Positions 28,697 through 49,429 of a DNA stretch of 53,311 nucleotides are shown piece after piece (within the stretch, counting starts at the first letter, position 1; every line of letters begins with the position of its first letter). The notes under the pieces are model-generated. The model searched no databases. It had not been told where the DNA came from and was given only the letters and a program-made list of their open reading frames with translations. This stretch comes from an uncultured bacterium (GTDB lineage Bacteria; Bacteroidota; Bacteroidia; CAILMK01). Where the stretch lies: NCBI GenBank assembly GCA_903829945.1, contig CAIKRV010000021.1, positions 1 through 53,311 of the forward strand, given 5' to 3'. The position numbers and the translations under genes are program-made.

Positions 28697-29113
28697 TTAT
28701 TTCTTTTTAGCTTTTGCACGTGCAGCACCTGGCTTCTTAGCAGCCACTGCTGTTGCTTTTTTCGCTTTAGGAGCAGCTTTCTTTGCAGGAGCAGCTTTTT
28801 TAGGAGCAGCTTTCTTTGCAGCTGGTTTAGCAGCAGCTTTCTTAGCAGCTGGCTTTTTAGCAGCAGCCTTTTTAGGAGCAGCTTTCTTTGCAGCAGCCTT
28901 TTTAGGAGCAGCCTTTTTCGCAGCTGTAGCTTTCTTAGGAGCAGCCTTTTTTGCAGGAGCCGATTTTTTAGGAGCAGCTTTTTTAGCAGCTGGTTTAGCA
29001 GCAGCTTTTTTCGCTGCTGGTTTTTTCGCAGCAGCTTTCTTTGGTGCTGCTTTCTTAGGAGCCGCAGCACTCTTAGCGCCGCTTGCTGATTTTGCTTTTT
29101 GCCTTTTTTCCAT
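28697..29113 (-). CDS. Lys/Ala-rich histone H1-like protein
   Basis: A 138-residue, extremely basic protein built almost wholly from Lys, Ala and Pro in AAPKK/AAAKK/PAAKK steps. It resembles the tail of eukaryotic histone H1 and the Hc1/AlgP-like bacterial proteins, so it probably binds and compacts DNA non-specifically. It contains an internal duplication: residues 23-60 and 79-116 differ at one position (Ser51 versus Ala107). A folded DNA-binding domain is absent. A -7 box TACCTTTG (minus strand, 29136-29143) precedes it and a terminator follows. Long open frames on the other strand are only shadows of the repeats. Confidence 0.8.
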   Translation of the reverse strand: MEKRQKAKSASGAKSAAAPKKAAPKKAAAKKPAAKKAAAKPAAKKAAPKKSAPAKKAAPKKATAAKKAAPKKAAAKKAAPKKAAAKKPAAKKAAAKPAAKKAAPKKAAPAKKAAPKAKKATAVAAKKPGAARAKAKKK

Positions 29114-29798: not shown

Positions 29799-32330
29799 TT
29801 ATCGTATCACAGATATTCGCTGTACTGATTTTGCTCCATCGCTAAGTAATTCACACAAATAAATTCCTTCCGGAAGCCCAGTGGTATTCCATACCAAAGT
29901 TTGCTTACCGTTAAATTTACCTGTGGCAATAACCTGAATTTTGGTGCCTTGCATATTATAAATTGAAATGGTAGCATAGGTTGGTAAAGCAAAATCAAAA
30001 GAAATATTAACCCATGTATTACTTGGATTCGGAAATACTTTCAATTTGTCTTTGGATACAGGCTCCTCAATATTAATGCCGGTAGTCAAATTATCAATGC
30101 CTCTTTGAAGGCCATTCCCATAACTGCCAATCCAAATTTCATTTTTTCTGTAGGGATGGAAATAAACATGCTCCGGACTACAATAATGATAGGATTCTAT
30201 TAGGCTAATGGTTGGCATTGAATCATTCAAATTTGTAGTATGCCACAAACCATGATCAGCTGTAGTCATATACATTTCATCTTTATTGTTTGGATTTATA
30301 GTAGCACTTTCAAAATTCATATTCCAAACATCAGGTTCCGATGATGGCGTAAGTCTTGTCCAATGCTTACCACGGTCTTTAGTTCTATAAATACCGCCCA
30401 TATCATTACCTGTTCCGCTCCATCCATTATTTACACAAACATACCAAGTGCTTTGGGTAGTATCATTATTATCAATAATAATTTCCTTGGTATAATATTT
30501 CATATTGGGATCCGATACATCTGTCCATGCGTTTGCCCCGGCTTTCAATATAAAAACACCGGAACTGGCAGTAAAAACTTTAGTTGTTCGTCGGCCTGAA
30601 TAAGTACATAAAATACTTCCATCGTTTAAAATATGAAGATCCCACGGATGCCCTTCAGTTCTCGGCGGATCAGGCAATTTATTCCAAACAGTAGAAGAAT
30701 CAATAATATTATTGCAGACATAAATACCGCCAATACTCGTAGTGGCACTATGTTGAATAACGGATGCGTAAAGTTTTTTAGGATTGTTGGGATCTGTAGC
30801 CATTTTGACCACGGGATGGCCAAAAGTATAAACGGTATTCCAAGTGGCACCCTTATCGGAAGTATATAAAACCTTACCATCATCATAGCTCGGGTTGCAT
30901 TGATTATCCATCAAATGTGTACTTTTATACATATCATGAACACTGGATGTACCTGCATAAAAATATCCATTTTGTGCTGATTGAACCATATGATACATGG
31001 TATTCAAATCATGGCCGGTATAATTAAAATTCCAGCTTTCACCGGCATCCGAACTTCGAATTCCTTTAATATCCGTAAACCCAGCAAAAATATTGGTTGA
31101 ATCCATCCATTGGATACACCAGCATCCGGTTACTTCTAAACCGTTAGAATGATAATTTTTTCCTTTTGGTGTTTTTTGAAATGGGGGATTTTGATCGGCA
31201 GTATCTTCATATAATTGATGCCAATATTTACCGCCATCATAAGTATAATAAGCATCTCCCATTCCGGTAATTGCAGCCTTATTACTATTTTTCGGAGCCA
31301 CACTAAATCCAATTGCAGCCGAAGAATACCATGGATAATCTCCACGAAAACCTACCCATGCGGTATATACATTTTGATTAATACCATCATATTGATATAT
31401 ACCAACGGTCATTATATTTACCCAATTTCCACTCGATGTACTTTTTAAAACCAAAGGATTTCCATAAGTCGTGGAACCTGCTACATAAACCGTTCCGGTA
31501 TCATTAGTGGCCATACCACAATATAATGGAAATTGAGAACTCGTATCTAAATTCATTTTAAAGGAGCTCCACTTTTTATCCCCCAATTCCATTTTAAAAA
31601 TTCCACGAAAAGTGCTAAAATTAAAATTTTCAACACCGGGATATGCATCATTTGAATCAGCAGTAATACAAACAAAACGAGTATGTCCATTTTGTTTAGC
31701 ACCGGCAAATGAGAACATATTATCAGGGACAGGAATACCTGAAATTTTATTTATAGAAAAATTTGCACCGCTATCATTTGAACTCAGTATTCCGGATTTG
31801 GTAGCTACATAAATATTATTAGCATCAAAGAAAGCTCCTGCCACATAGCACGCAGGGAAATAAAATATCTTCTTAAAGTTTTTACCTCCATCCTTTGAAA
31901 AATAAATTGCATTATAATCAGAAGCAATAATTCTTAGACTATCATTAACATCAGAAAATAAATAATAGGCAGTACCTGACCAGCCGGATAATGCATTCCA
32001 TAAGGTGCCGCCATCTATACTTTTCACTACAGCTCCTCCATGACCATAATCTAAAGTATATAAAATTTTAGGATGATTTGTATAGCAGACTTTAGTCGGG
32101 CTGGAAGAAGCTACTTGTCTAAAATCAACAATATTCCAAGTGGCACCACTATTTACGCTATGAAATAAATCCCCCATATCACAAGTAATAAACATATCTG
32201 AATCATTATTCGGACTAAAGGTCGGATTAAACATAGCCCCACCTCCACCTATTCCAATACTCTTCCATTGTTTTGGTTGTGCATTGGCATGCAAAGCAAT
32301 TAAAAGTAGAAGTAATAAATATCTTTTCAT
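29799..32330 (-). CDS. Secreted BNR/Asp-box repeat protein with T9SS sorting domain
   Basis: An 843-residue secreted protein. The signal peptide ends at LHANAQ. About eight Asp-box-type turns (SGATWN, DGGKNF, DGGKYW, DAGESW, DKGATW, DRGKHW) show a beta-propeller of the sialidase/VPS10/GH74-like kind. Residues of about 768-843 form a type A T9SS sorting domain (VFPNPSNTWVNISFDF through GIYLCELLSDG). It is thus exported by the PorQ-dependent system. A glycoside hydrolase role, for example on xyloglucan, is possible but no catalytic residues were assigned. A 32-bp perfect palindrome lies 32 bp upstream of the start. Confidence 0.82.
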   Translation of the reverse strand: MKRYLLLLLLIALHANAQPKQWKSIGIGGGGAMFNPTFSPNNDSDMFITCDMGDLFHSVNSGATWNIVDFRQVASSSPTKVCYTNHPKILYTLDYGHGGAVVKSIDGGTLWNALSGWSGTAYYLFSDVNDSLRIIASDYNAIYFSKDGGKNFKKIFYFPACYVAGAFFDANNIYVATKSGILSSNDSGANFSINKISGIPVPDNMFSFAGAKQNGHTRFVCITADSNDAYPGVENFNFSTFRGIFKMELGDKKWSSFKMNLDTSSQFPLYCGMATNDTGTVYVAGSTTYGNPLVLKSTSSGNWVNIMTVGIYQYDGINQNVYTAWVGFRGDYPWYSSAAIGFSVAPKNSNKAAITGMGDAYYTYDGGKYWHQLYEDTADQNPPFQKTPKGKNYHSNGLEVTGCWCIQWMDSTNIFAGFTDIKGIRSSDAGESWNFNYTGHDLNTMYHMVQSAQNGYFYAGTSSVHDMYKSTHLMDNQCNPSYDDGKVLYTSDKGATWNTVYTFGHPVVKMATDPNNPKKLYASVIQHSATTSIGGIYVCNNIIDSSTVWNKLPDPPRTEGHPWDLHILNDGSILCTYSGRRTTKVFTASSGVFILKAGANAWTDVSDPNMKYYTKEIIIDNNDTTQSTWYVCVNNGWSGTGNDMGGIYRTKDRGKHWTRLTPSSEPDVWNMNFESATINPNNKDEMYMTTADHGLWHTTNLNDSMPTISLIESYHYCSPEHVYFHPYRKNEIWIGSYGNGLQRGIDNLTTGINIEEPVSKDKLKVFPNPSNTWVNISFDFALPTYATISIYNMQGTKIQVIATGKFNGKQTLVWNTTGLPEGIYLCELLSDGAKSVQRISVIR

Positions 32331-44745: not shown

Positions 44746-44955
44746 AGATAATAAATTTGTTATACACAAAACTAAATAAAATTTTTATATTATAAAACAT
44801 TAATTAGTTGGATTAGCATTTAAAAATAGTCGGAATAAAAAGACGATTAAATTATCCTACAAACAGCTCAAATTTAGAATGCCATTAAGTTTACTATATC
44901 TCCGCTCGTGTGAAGTCTTCTGAAGGGAGACATGGTACAAATGGATATAAATGAT

Positions 44956-45350: not shown

Positions 45351-45548
45351 TCAGACAGGTATATCCAAAGTGACTAAGGTGATAGACATTCCAACACCTT
45401 CTTCCACCAGTTTTTTTATTGCATAATTAGCAATATTATATGCAGTATATTTATCCTTCTTTCGTTGGTATTTAGCACAATCCTTACACTTATATTGCTT
45501 ATTATTCCTGTCTTGATACATTGGCAATAGCGGCAAGTAAAGCTTACA
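45351..45548 (-). pseudogene. Remnant of an IS1-like transposase N-terminus
   Basis: The in-frame part reads KQYKCKDCAKYQRKK followed by NYAIKKLVEEGVGMS, like the zinc-binding and helix-turn-helix start of IS1-family InsA. In the other frame just upstream the sequence reads TCRYCQCIKTG, which supplies the first Cys pair, so a frameshift splits the gene. The frame then stops after about 60 residues and the DDE domain is missing. It is a dead insertion sequence. IS1 assignment is from pattern only. Confidence 0.45.
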
Positions 45549-45720
45549 GTTTGGGATATGAGGTCAGCTTTGAATATTTAGATGCGGTAAGATACATTTT
45601 TTCCCTATTAAACGATATAAGCCCTACTTTTATTTTCGCTGATTTTTAGTGGTCTTGGTTTTTAAAATTATTGTTTTTCAAGTGATTGTGAAGCATAAAT
45701 GACAGTTTAAGAAATTACCC

Positions 45721-46257
45721 TTATTTATGTGTTTTATCAATAAAAGCAGGAGCTAATTCTTTAATGGTATCATAAAAACTGTCAATCAGGTTGTTTTTAG
45801 CCCATTCACCATAAGGATATTGTTCAAACATAACGTGGTTAGTTTTTCGATAAGTAAAAACAATTTTATAACTTATTGAACGACCATCCACTACAAGTAC
45901 TCGGTCTATTGAGATGTCATTAACAGAAAACGGTTCATCAGCAAAGATTAATTTATTTTTGTCATATACTGTAATTGACAAACATTCTTCAGATATTAAA
46001 TAAGCTTTGATAATATAAATTTTGCTCCAGTTCCTATTTCTGAAGTAACTTATCAAAGAAAATACTATCATACCACCTCCTGCCACAGGAACCATGATGA
46101 ATAACAAAGGTTTTAAAAATAAGAAATGGATAAGTATTAGTAATGTCATTGAGACAATATTAACTACAAATGCATACTTTAGACTATTTTTAAATCTTTC
46201 AAAATGACCAATAAATGGAAGGTCAATTTTTAATTCAGTCTGATTTATTCCTTCCAT
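45721..46257 (-). CDS. Two-helix membrane protein, candidate Rhs immunity
   Basis: A 178-residue protein with two adjacent membrane segments (about 28-48 and 50-71, LIHFLFLKPLLFIMVPVAGG) and a soluble C-terminal half with alternating beta-strand pattern. Its ATG lies inside the end of the Rhs gene (13-bp overlap). A gene directly after an Rhs C-terminus is often the matching immunity protein. The hydrophobic Rhs C-terminus and this membrane protein would suit a membrane-acting toxin pair. No sequence family is recognized and the toxin has not been shown. Confidence 0.55.
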   Translation of the reverse strand: MEGINQTELKIDLPFIGHFERFKNSLKYAFVVNIVSMTLLILIHFLFLKPLLFIMVPVAGGGMIVFSLISYFRNRNWSKIYIIKAYLISEECLSITVYDKNKLIFADEPFSVNDISIDRVLVVDGRSISYKIVFTYRKTNHVMFEQYPYGEWAKNNLIDSFYDTIKELAPAFIDKTHK

Positions 46258-48605
46258 TTTTTATAAATATATTGTCCTGTTGATTCTAATGTTCCCATTT
46301 TTCCTGTATAATCTCCGATTTTTATAATAGTCGGACTTAATGTTTTCGGCGTAACGTCGGAAATTGCCTTCCCACCTTTTATAAAGACTAGACCTTCCAT
46401 AATATCACCAACCATTGATGCATCCTCACCAAAAGGTCTAGCTATTACTCCTGTGTAAGAAGAAGGTAATTCTGATACCTCATGATGACCGCTTAAATGG
46501 CCAATAGATTTAACTGTCGCTAAGGAAACCGATGTGACCCCAGTTGTTAAAAGGCCTGCTGCCCAAAGCGCAGCAGGAACAGCAAGTCCTCCAGTTGAGC
46601 TAACTATAGCAATTGCTGCAACTATGGCTACAACTCCTCCCACTATTGCAAACACACTACCCACTTGATCTGCTACATCTCCTGTTTTCCAACCTTGGCC
46701 GGATTCTTTACCTCCTTTGTTTACACTTGTTTTCGCAGAACCTTCCAAAGGGTTGATGTTACTGAAAAATTTTGATAGAGTATTCTTTAGTTTTTCAGTA
46801 GTTTCTTGGAAATTTCCTTCATTCTGAAACTTTAAATTAAAAACTTTGAAATTACCATCTTTATCTTGAATGCGAACCTTTGCTTCAAGAGTCAAAATAA
46901 TTTTATCTCCACTTGTTTTTATTGCTTTGGCTTGTATACCATAAGTTATTTTGCTATCAAGTGGCCCTTTGAAATCACCTACGACCTTTAATGTTGAAAC
47001 TGATGTGATTTGTGCATCAGCATTATTGATCTGGGTTAAAGATGTATCTGTAGCTGAATTAGTGCTGTTGGATTGTTGGACGTCATTATTCATACTTCCA
47101 CCTTGAACTGGGCTGGTAGGCTCTCCTTTCGTTTCCGCACCATCAAGATCAATATGATTTATTGGTTTATTTGCTGCATAGGCAAATGGTGTTAAATGTG
47201 CATACTTTTCCGCCAACGGATCCACACTTACAAACCGACACGTCCATGGCATGTAGTAGCGCATGCCGTAGTAATATAATCCGCTTTCCTCATCCTTCTC
47301 TTTTCCACAGAAGCGATAACGCTTTTTGGCGTAGCTTCCAAAACTTGTTTCTCCAAAGGGGTAATATTCTTCGCGGTTTACTAAGGCTGCATTGCTTGCA
47401 TCAATCAATACATTACTTGAACCTAGATGATCCGACAAAATAAACTTTATGGCAGGCGTACTATCCCCCATGGCTTCACCAATGCGTTCTGTGGCTATGC
47501 GTGCCTTGTCATCCATGATATGTACTGTATTTTGTTTATCGGTACCGTCTGTACAATATTCAAAGATACTATCAATATACGTAACTGATAACCATACCCC
47601 TCCGGTATTTTGGGTTAGTTTCTTTATACGATTGCCGGAGGCATCATACAAGTACGTAGTAAAAATAGTCGGTGTTCCACTTCCTACCTGATTCGCAAAG
47701 GTGCGCATCCTATCAGCATAGTCCCAGCCAAACTTACGGTCGGTGTTTTCTGTTATTATATAGCCATTCGCATCGTAGCTATAGGTATAATTATTGGAAC
47801 CTACCGTCATGCCTTGTAGCAAATTATTGGGCTTGGGAGTACCGCTGTTATAATTGAAGTACCGTACATAATTATCTCCACTGGCGGCATTTTTCAATAC
47901 CGTAATGTTGCCCATTTCATCATAATCATACTGCTGGGTATAAGCAACAGTATTGGCATCCGTATCATCGCGGTACACGTCCTCCCATGCCGGGAAACTG
48001 GTATAAGGCAGGTTCTCCCTGCCCGTCGCTTGCAATAGTCTGTAAAGGGCATCATAATTAAAATCTCGCTCCAATCCGCTTGTACCCCCTATACCTCCAT
48101 TTGGTGTTTCATCGTTTATTTTTAAAATATTCCCTAATGGGTCATAGCTATACGCAAAATCTTGTTTGGTCGTGCCGCTTTGGGGGATATAGGTATCGGT
48201 GGTCGTTGTAGAACTCAGGGCATATTTCTCGCTCTTCATCCGCAAGAGCCGGAAGTTCTTATCATCATACACATAGCGCGTCATAATACCGGCGGCATTA
48301 GTCATGCCATCCGTATTCATGGAAATCAGTAGTCGCTGACCTCGTGCATTATAGGCTATGCGCTGCACATAGGGCACTGATGTTCCTCCCACCGAATCCT
48401 GCATATAAACCCTATCCATCTTACCCGATTTATCATAGGCCGGAATCATCACTCTTCTATTATTACTATCCGTAGTAGCATCAGGATATATCTCGCTCGC
48501 TCGAGAATTTATTGTAAGAGCTCTCGAATTAATGAAATAGGGCGGTCTGGGACCGCAATAATCCTCGGGATTATTCCTCCAATTCCTATTATACATTTCC
48601 TTCAA
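46245..48605 (-). CDS. Rhs-repeat protein, N-terminally short, with variable C-terminus
   Basis: A 786-residue protein read from a TTG at 48605 (an ATG follows at 48596). Residues of about 50-390 hold YD-type Rhs repeats (YDPLGNILKI, YDASGNRIKKL). Residues of about 390-489 are the conserved core end (DHLGSSNVLID, YYPFGETSFG, GLYYYGMRYY, RFVSVDPLAEKY). Past GA at 490 the last 297 residues are unrelated to the core and look more AT-rich, with a Gly/Ala/Val-rich hydrophobic part at about 640-705. Full-size Rhs proteins are often over 1,500 residues, so the N-terminal part is missing: an orphan or displaced copy. INSRA appears twice near the start. Confidence 0.82.
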   Translation of the reverse strand: MKEMYNRNWRNNPEDYCGPRPPYFINSRALTINSRASEIYPDATTDSNNRRVMIPAYDKSGKMDRVYMQDSVGGTSVPYVQRIAYNARGQRLLISMNTDGMTNAAGIMTRYVYDDKNFRLLRMKSEKYALSSTTTTDTYIPQSGTTKQDFAYSYDPLGNILKINDETPNGGIGGTSGLERDFNYDALYRLLQATGRENLPYTSFPAWEDVYRDDTDANTVAYTQQYDYDEMGNITVLKNAASGDNYVRYFNYNSGTPKPNNLLQGMTVGSNNYTYSYDANGYIITENTDRKFGWDYADRMRTFANQVGSGTPTIFTTYLYDASGNRIKKLTQNTGGVWLSVTYIDSIFEYCTDGTDKQNTVHIMDDKARIATERIGEAMGDSTPAIKFILSDHLGSSNVLIDASNAALVNREEYYPFGETSFGSYAKKRYRFCGKEKDEESGLYYYGMRYYMPWTCRFVSVDPLAEKYAHLTPFAYAANKPINHIDLDGAETKGEPTSPVQGGSMNNDVQQSNSTNSATDTSLTQINNADAQITSVSTLKVVGDFKGPLDSKITYGIQAKAIKTSGDKIILTLEAKVRIQDKDGNFKVFNLKFQNEGNFQETTEKLKNTLSKFFSNINPLEGSAKTSVNKGGKESGQGWKTGDVADQVGSVFAIVGGVVAIVAAIAIVSSTGGLAVPAALWAAGLLTTGVTSVSLATVKSIGHLSGHHEVSELPSSYTGVIARPFGEDASMVGDIMEGLVFIKGGKAISDVTPKTLSPTIIKIGDYTGKMGTLESTGQYIYKKWKE

Positions 48606-48842
48606 AAATAAAAATTATTTGCAATTTAAATAATATTTTTATAACTATTTAATTCTCATAATATAAAATTAAAAGTGTTTCTTGAAAGCAAAACATCAGA
48701 CATTTTAAACATATTCTTAATTTACTGATACTTAACCTGTCTGATTTTAAATTCAAATAATTAATTTACCATTCTGATAAATATGTAACTATAAGCGATA
48801 AACATGTAAGTTACTTTAACCATAAATATTCAACCTTTGTCC

Positions 48843-48861
48843 TATCGGAATAAAACCGATA
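48843..48861 (+). promoter_or_regulatory. Inverted repeat upstream of the envelope trio
   Basis: TATCGG (48843-48848) and CCGATA (48856-48861), 7 nt apart, sit 7 bp before the ATG at 48869 and just after CAACCTTTG (near -7 box). A second pair, GTAACT and AGTTAC, lies about 50 bp further up. Position suggests an operator or translation control; the regulator may be one of the genes downstream. Confidence 0.4.
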
Positions 48862-48868
48862 ACAAAAG

Positions 48869-49429
48869 ATGAAAAAAATTATATTTACACTACTACTTGT
48901 ATGGAGCTATTGCTACCAAAGTCAAGCACAAGACAAATTTGGTCAAACCCTAAACCTAGGATTAGGCCTCGGAGGCTATTCCGGTTATTATTCATATACA
49001 GGACATACCATGCCTGTTCTCCATGTAGATTATGAATTTGATGTAGCCAGAAATTTTACACTTGCTCCCTTTGTTAATTTTTATACCTTTTCCAATAGTT
49101 ATTATTGGGGCGATAATAATCATCCCAATCGATATTATAATTATACCCAAACTGTAATTCCTATCGGCGTAAAAGGAACCTATTATTTCGATGAATTATT
49201 AAATGCGGGTGCCAACTGGGATTTTTATCTTGCAGGTTCATTAGGATTTGCAATAATAAATTCCACTTGGGATAATGGATACGGCGGAAATCCAAATTAT
49301 TATGAAAAACCAAGTTCCCTTTTTCTGGATTTGCATATTGGAACAGAGTATCACTTCAGTAGAAGAATTGGTGTATTTTTAGATCTATCAACAGGTGTAT
49401 CTACTATAGGACTAGCCATTCATAGATAA
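48869..49429 (+). CDS. Outer-membrane beta-barrel protein of unknown function
   Basis: A 186-residue protein with a signal peptide ending at SQAQ and a mature part of alternating strands, rich in Tyr, Gly and Asn (GYSGYYSYTGHTMPVLHVDY; DLHIGTEYHFSRRIGVFLDL). It resembles small eight-stranded outer-membrane barrels. It starts an operon with two further envelope genes, 7 bp before the next. No specific family is recognized. Confidence 0.7.
   Translation: MKKIIFTLLLVWSYCYQSQAQDKFGQTLNLGLGLGGYSGYYSYTGHTMPVLHVDYEFDVARNFTLAPFVNFYTFSNSYYWGDNNHPNRYYNYTQTVIPIGVKGTYYFDELLNAGANWDFYLAGSLGFAIINSTWDNGYGGNPNYYEKPSSLFLDLHIGTEYHFSRRIGVFLDLSTGVSTIGLAIHR

Follow-up and report, generated by a model that had tools for sequence, protein, structure and literature searches.

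The orphan rhs-CT/rhsI modules of Enterobacteriaceae (e.g., STM0292 of Salmonella LT2) are composed of a core fragment, a tail and a small adjacent gene, lack an N-terminal delivery part, and are preceded by a main rhs gene able to take them up. Silent-cassette recombination of such orphan tips has been shown for Salmonella (PMC3967940), whose orphan Rhs pairs can also act inside the cell (PMC7043789), and Rhs loci have been described as having a GC-richer core and AT-richer tips (PMC2935791). The locus described here has the same anatomy, but it differs in two respects: no second core was found, and its break lies at a dispersed repeat.

Ssp6 is reportedly a membrane-depolarising toxin with a membrane immunity protein. 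Toxins of the Bte2/VasX type are also membrane-depolarising and have membrane immunity proteins (PMC12718326 for Bte2), and EsxX is a depolarising toxin whose polytopic membrane immunity proteins, ExiCD, protect from the outside (PMC12744356). Tox-WTIP, a predicted class, is the one pore-forming class listed in a survey of polymorphic toxins (PMC3482391).

The window, i.e., the whole stretch of 53,311 nucleotides that was analysed (contig CAIKRV010000021.1 of an uncultured member of the Bacteroidia), contains at 46245-48605, on the minus strand, an open frame of 786 codons (2361 bases without an internal stop; the coordinates were re-checked and are exact). In a profile search, residues 414-489 of this frame matched the Rhs-associated core TIGR03696 (E 3.7e-21 at 75.4 bits, the cut-off being 32.5; E 1.6e-22 in the genome-wide search), placing this core, as in Rhs proteins, at the junction with a variable tail. 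Residues 49-537 align at about 50% identity with a same-genus Rhs frame of 1634 aa (L030, G295 C286, 933-5837), which has a different tail that we take, by eye, to resemble a CHAP/NlpC-type amidase. From the profile match and this alignment, the truncated Rhs/YD-repeat core occupies 47139-48488 (minus strand, Rhs_assc_core at 47139-47366), which amounts to only about 450 residues instead of a complete YD-repeat shell with its N-terminal delivery region. It is directly followed by a tail of 297 residues, the candidate toxin (46245-47138, minus strand), recognised by its position, its GC3 and its absence of relatives. The core ends at residue 489, where the first-pass annotation had put it, with 297 different residues beyond. 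A frame of 178 codons on the same strand (45721-46257), the candidate immunity gene, starts 13 bp before the end of the Rhs frame. The three elements of an orphan Rhs CT/immunity module (a partial core, a tail of different composition and an adjacent small gene) are thus present. What the locus shows directly is a fragment of the core, its junction with the tail, the overlap, a missing N-terminus and, where the gene breaks off, the repeat. It is best explained as a known kind of locus, an Rhs C-terminal tip that is orphan (displaced and solitary) and is accompanied by its immunity gene; we give this reading a probability of about 0.7. Tail and overlapping gene would have come in jointly as the toxin-immunity cassette of an Rhs protein, the front half of which would have been lost later at the hairpin repeat.

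Residues 1 to about 40 of the frame are not Rhs; homology begins at about residue 40-49 (49 in the alignment, 40 by eye). Most of these first codons are spanned by a copy of a dispersed multi-hairpin repeat (48484-48587, plus strand), recognised by its genome matches, a same-genus copy and its hairpins, which abuts the Rhs core and indicates, at the level of sequence, that the Rhs gene is cut at, or joined to, this repeat. The N-terminus had been called missing before, which both the repeat in these codons and the length of the core bear out. With a related copy as query, 18 places in the genome were matched (E <= 0.01), that is, 17 besides the one in the window, which is among the more diverged (75% identity to the query); a copy in a same-genus genome is 84% identical over 55 bases. 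The repeat consists of several hairpins, whose stems vary and whose joints are constant, and some copies form inverted pairs; others are found at 32245-32325 and 32405-32466 of contig C25 of G000, in C61, C81, C67 and C6, and elsewhere. No Rfam family was found at its cut-off in a scan of the whole window, hairpin repeat included. A fragment related to the same family (81% identity over 43 columns) lies on the opposite side of the cassette (44902-44941, plus strand). For annotation, the lesson is that what looks like the beginning of an orphan Rhs frame can be repeat sequence and not Rhs. We give little credence to the broader idea that dispersed multi-hairpin repeats would be places where Rhs genes break or are joined, leaving their tips stranded, and that in-frame read-through would supply a new start, so that a delivered toxin becomes a toxin-antitoxin pair that is solitary, internal and made up of new families.

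Neither the tail nor its partner matched Pfam, NCBIfam, PADLOC or PHROGs over a cut-off, in agreement with the initial impression that both lack a known family. Against 295 genomes of the class, the tail gave seven matches (E <= 0.01), its own genome and six others (L003-L008), none of which was Rhs on inspection: those in L003, L004, L005 and L008 share one frame, presumably an alanine dehydrogenase (L005 was listed only, its frame not inspected), the one in L007 is in what we take to be trigger factor, and that in L006 is in a 293-aa frame of a kind that was not recognised. Two further weak matches of the last 158 residues, among 395 genomes of the phylum, were discarded as relatives, since L056 is a large repeat-rich frame and in L057 a protein other than Rhs is matched in its hydrophobic part. 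No match to the tail came from plasmids, viral contigs or genome contigs, and it has no convincing relative in any collection searched. A single-sequence structure model of the tail (pLDDT 42.5) contains nothing reliable and was too poor for a fold search; a search of solved structures gave nothing convincing. The tail has one strong hydrophobic stretch, at residues 155-191 (46566-46676, minus strand; Kyte-Doolittle peak 2.81 as a 19-residue mean), beyond which 94 residues, from position 204 to the end, remain. A strict glycine zipper, (G/A/S)xxxGxxxG or GxxxGxxx(G/S/T), does not occur within this stretch, the two matches in the tail being at residues 54 and 275. A hydrophobic toxin segment is shared with EsxX-ExiCD, Ssp6 and the Bte2/VasX type, and for EsxX the likeness extends to polytopic membrane immunity proteins; however, no sequence relation to these systems is apparent, they use other delivery systems, and the zipper is missing here. 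Likewise, Tox-WTIP has membrane-spanning helices in a polymorphic toxin tail, but its RxxR and Wx[ST]IP motifs, as given in the survey (PMC3482391), are absent from the window tail in a motif search, which leaves the tail outside this class.

The partner is predicted, from its overlap, its hydropathy and a low-confidence model, to be a two-helix membrane hairpin followed by a probable beta-rich domain. The hairpin (residues 25-72; 46042-46185, minus strand) is supported by hydropathy and by block-mean pLDDT values of 80-96 for residues 21-70, and it is flanked on both sides by K/R residues. These data agree with the two-helix membrane protein proposed from the first reading, whose length and 13-bp overlap with the Rhs stop proved exact. 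The single-sequence model (pLDDT 60.5) contains a helix at 13-73 and then low-confidence strands, and a fold search with it gave no match at E <= 0.001. The 178-aa protein lacks the WxW that, together with two TM helices, characterises Imm17, and its score for DUF3796 (16.3 bits) is below the curated cut-off of 24.8. Among the 295 class genomes it matched itself and, weakly, six others, chiefly in the membrane part for L010, L011, L012 and L014, over residues 80-144 for L013 and over residues 22-111 for L015; among the 395 phylum genomes (E <= 0.001) it matched only itself, and genome contigs, plasmids and viral contigs gave no match. An iterated search was discounted because it grew out of spurious matches; its hit in the Rhs array of L114 (E 0.021) covers only a short hydrophobic segment. 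No convincing relative of the partner was found in any collection searched, and since the same is true of the tail, their pairing rests on one locus.

A membrane-acting effector had been suggested from this pairing, and the suggestion was compared with other Rhs cassettes, taken from the best-scoring and array-rich core matches among the class genomes and from earlier order relatives, hence not a random draw. Three of the 63 distinct comparator tails of at least 40 aa have a hydrophobic peak of at least 2.0. When a tail of at least 60 aa, 300 bases downstream and a following frame of at least 70 aa were demanded, 47 comparators were kept; the next frame has a strong hydrophobic stretch in 18 and none in 23, and the six whose partner was of intermediate hydrophobicity did not enter the tests. 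No association was found between a membrane partner and a hydrophobic tail (n=41; Fisher p 0.57 at 2.0, Mann-Whitney p 0.57). Membrane partners are common and occur irrespective of how hydrophobic the tail is; by itself, such a partner therefore argues only weakly for a membrane-acting tail, and in this sample it is no guide to a hydrophobic one. The peak of the window tail is above those of all 47 comparators (next value 2.74). Two, L120 and L148, pair a hydrophobic tail with a hydrophobic partner, and the L120 partner has by eye a similar layout (membrane hairpin, then soluble part), with no significant sequence similarity. Of the earlier suggestion, then, the possibility stands, in view of the tail's own hydrophobicity, whereas the partner by itself carries little weight. 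That the tail acts on a membrane is plausible, as a leading guess and not a result; tentatively, the most likely action would be depolarisation of the inner membrane through insertion of the hydrophobic segment, with the two-helix immunity protein blocking the segment there.

It is rather unlikely that the hydrophobic stretch serves only as a translocation or pre-toxin segment, with the last 94 or so residues acting as a small soluble cytoplasmic toxin and the membrane partner anchoring a neutralising domain at the inner membrane. In L017, the most hydrophobic comparator tail, a similar stretch has about 212 more residues behind it, and the gene that comes next has no hydrophobic stretch; the weak non-Rhs match in L057 likewise has a hydrophobic stretch ahead of more C-terminal sequence, and the K/R residues on both hairpin flanks of the partner suggest a cytoplasmic C-terminal domain. 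Nevertheless, 94 residues are short for such a toxin, the tail matches no family over a cut-off, and no catalytic motif was recognised in it by eye.

In the genome, whose assembly is rated 99.99% complete, this is the one Rhs core above the cut-off, the next match scoring 13.8 bits, below it, and neither nearby nor elsewhere was a main rhs gene with the same core found. The T6SS sheath (TssC/VipB, PF05943), the one delivery family searched, has no match either, so there is no obvious delivery route. We regard as unlikely that the locus is a dead remnant whose toxin part is lost and in which neither gene now functions. The missing front half, the repeat at the break, the repeat fragment and an IS1-like remnant alongside, and the lack of an acceptor core and of a sheath match agree with decay, while the uninterrupted frame and its intact overlap with the partner argue against it. 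The initial suggestion of a silent cassette, one that would be maintained to recombine onto a complete Rhs gene in the way known from Salmonella LT2, fits the anatomy of the orphan tips in PMC3967940 but is very unlikely, since the full gene with the same core that the first-pass annotation proposed to look for was not found in this genome, leaving the cassette without an acceptor, and the only Rhs found in the genus shares about 50-54% protein identity with it, against 522 bp at 95% identity in Salmonella (PMC3967940).

Under the reading as an orphan tip with its immunity gene, the Rhs stump is probably too short for a full Rhs shell and no export route is visible, so that any tail produced would not leave its own cell and would be neutralised there by the membrane protein. 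At present the locus is most likely a relic, which either persists as an immunity gene against neighbours that carry this tip or is decaying towards one, although the frame is still fully open, which would not be required of a decayed relic. If the pair works, a very diverse known class would gain a tail and a membrane immunity protein, neither of them described so far.

GC3 falls from 0.42 in the core to 0.24 in the tail and 0.22 in the partner (0.29-0.36 in three neighbours), and the low values of tail and partner relative to the core are in line with the Rhs pattern as outlined in PMC2935791. Rhs cores were found in 148 of the 295 class genomes, many in short frames. L031 (G034 C43, 7836-15044), of the same order, contains a tandem series of truncated Rhs cores in which the tail and the small gene differ from one core to the next, and L114 (G014 C9), of the same class, has eight successive Rhs cassettes; behind seven of these, the next frame has a strong hydrophobic stretch. 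Both share the unit of short core, CT and small gene, but they are arrays, whereas the window has a single cassette, and no sequence relation of its tail or partner to theirs was found. Stranded Rhs tails are common in related bacteria and the type is ordinary, even though this tail and partner match no described family. No paper combining Rhs, Bacteroidota, polymorphic toxin and cassette was found when one literature collection was searched with that word combination. In the family relatives, the neighbour genes that could be placed sit in other surroundings, and no empty site was readable. Sites found in a promoter scan of 45400-48900 were no more frequent than in shuffles. The IS1-like remnant is a short frame beside the cassette (45351-45536, minus strand), a probable IS1-type transposase remnant by a below-cut-off match to NF033558 (E 0.005, 16.8 bits). 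Elsewhere in the window, an imperfect tandem repeat with units of 15-27 bp (28755-29062) lies inside overlapping frames on both strands, possibly a lysine/alanine-rich histone-like gene.
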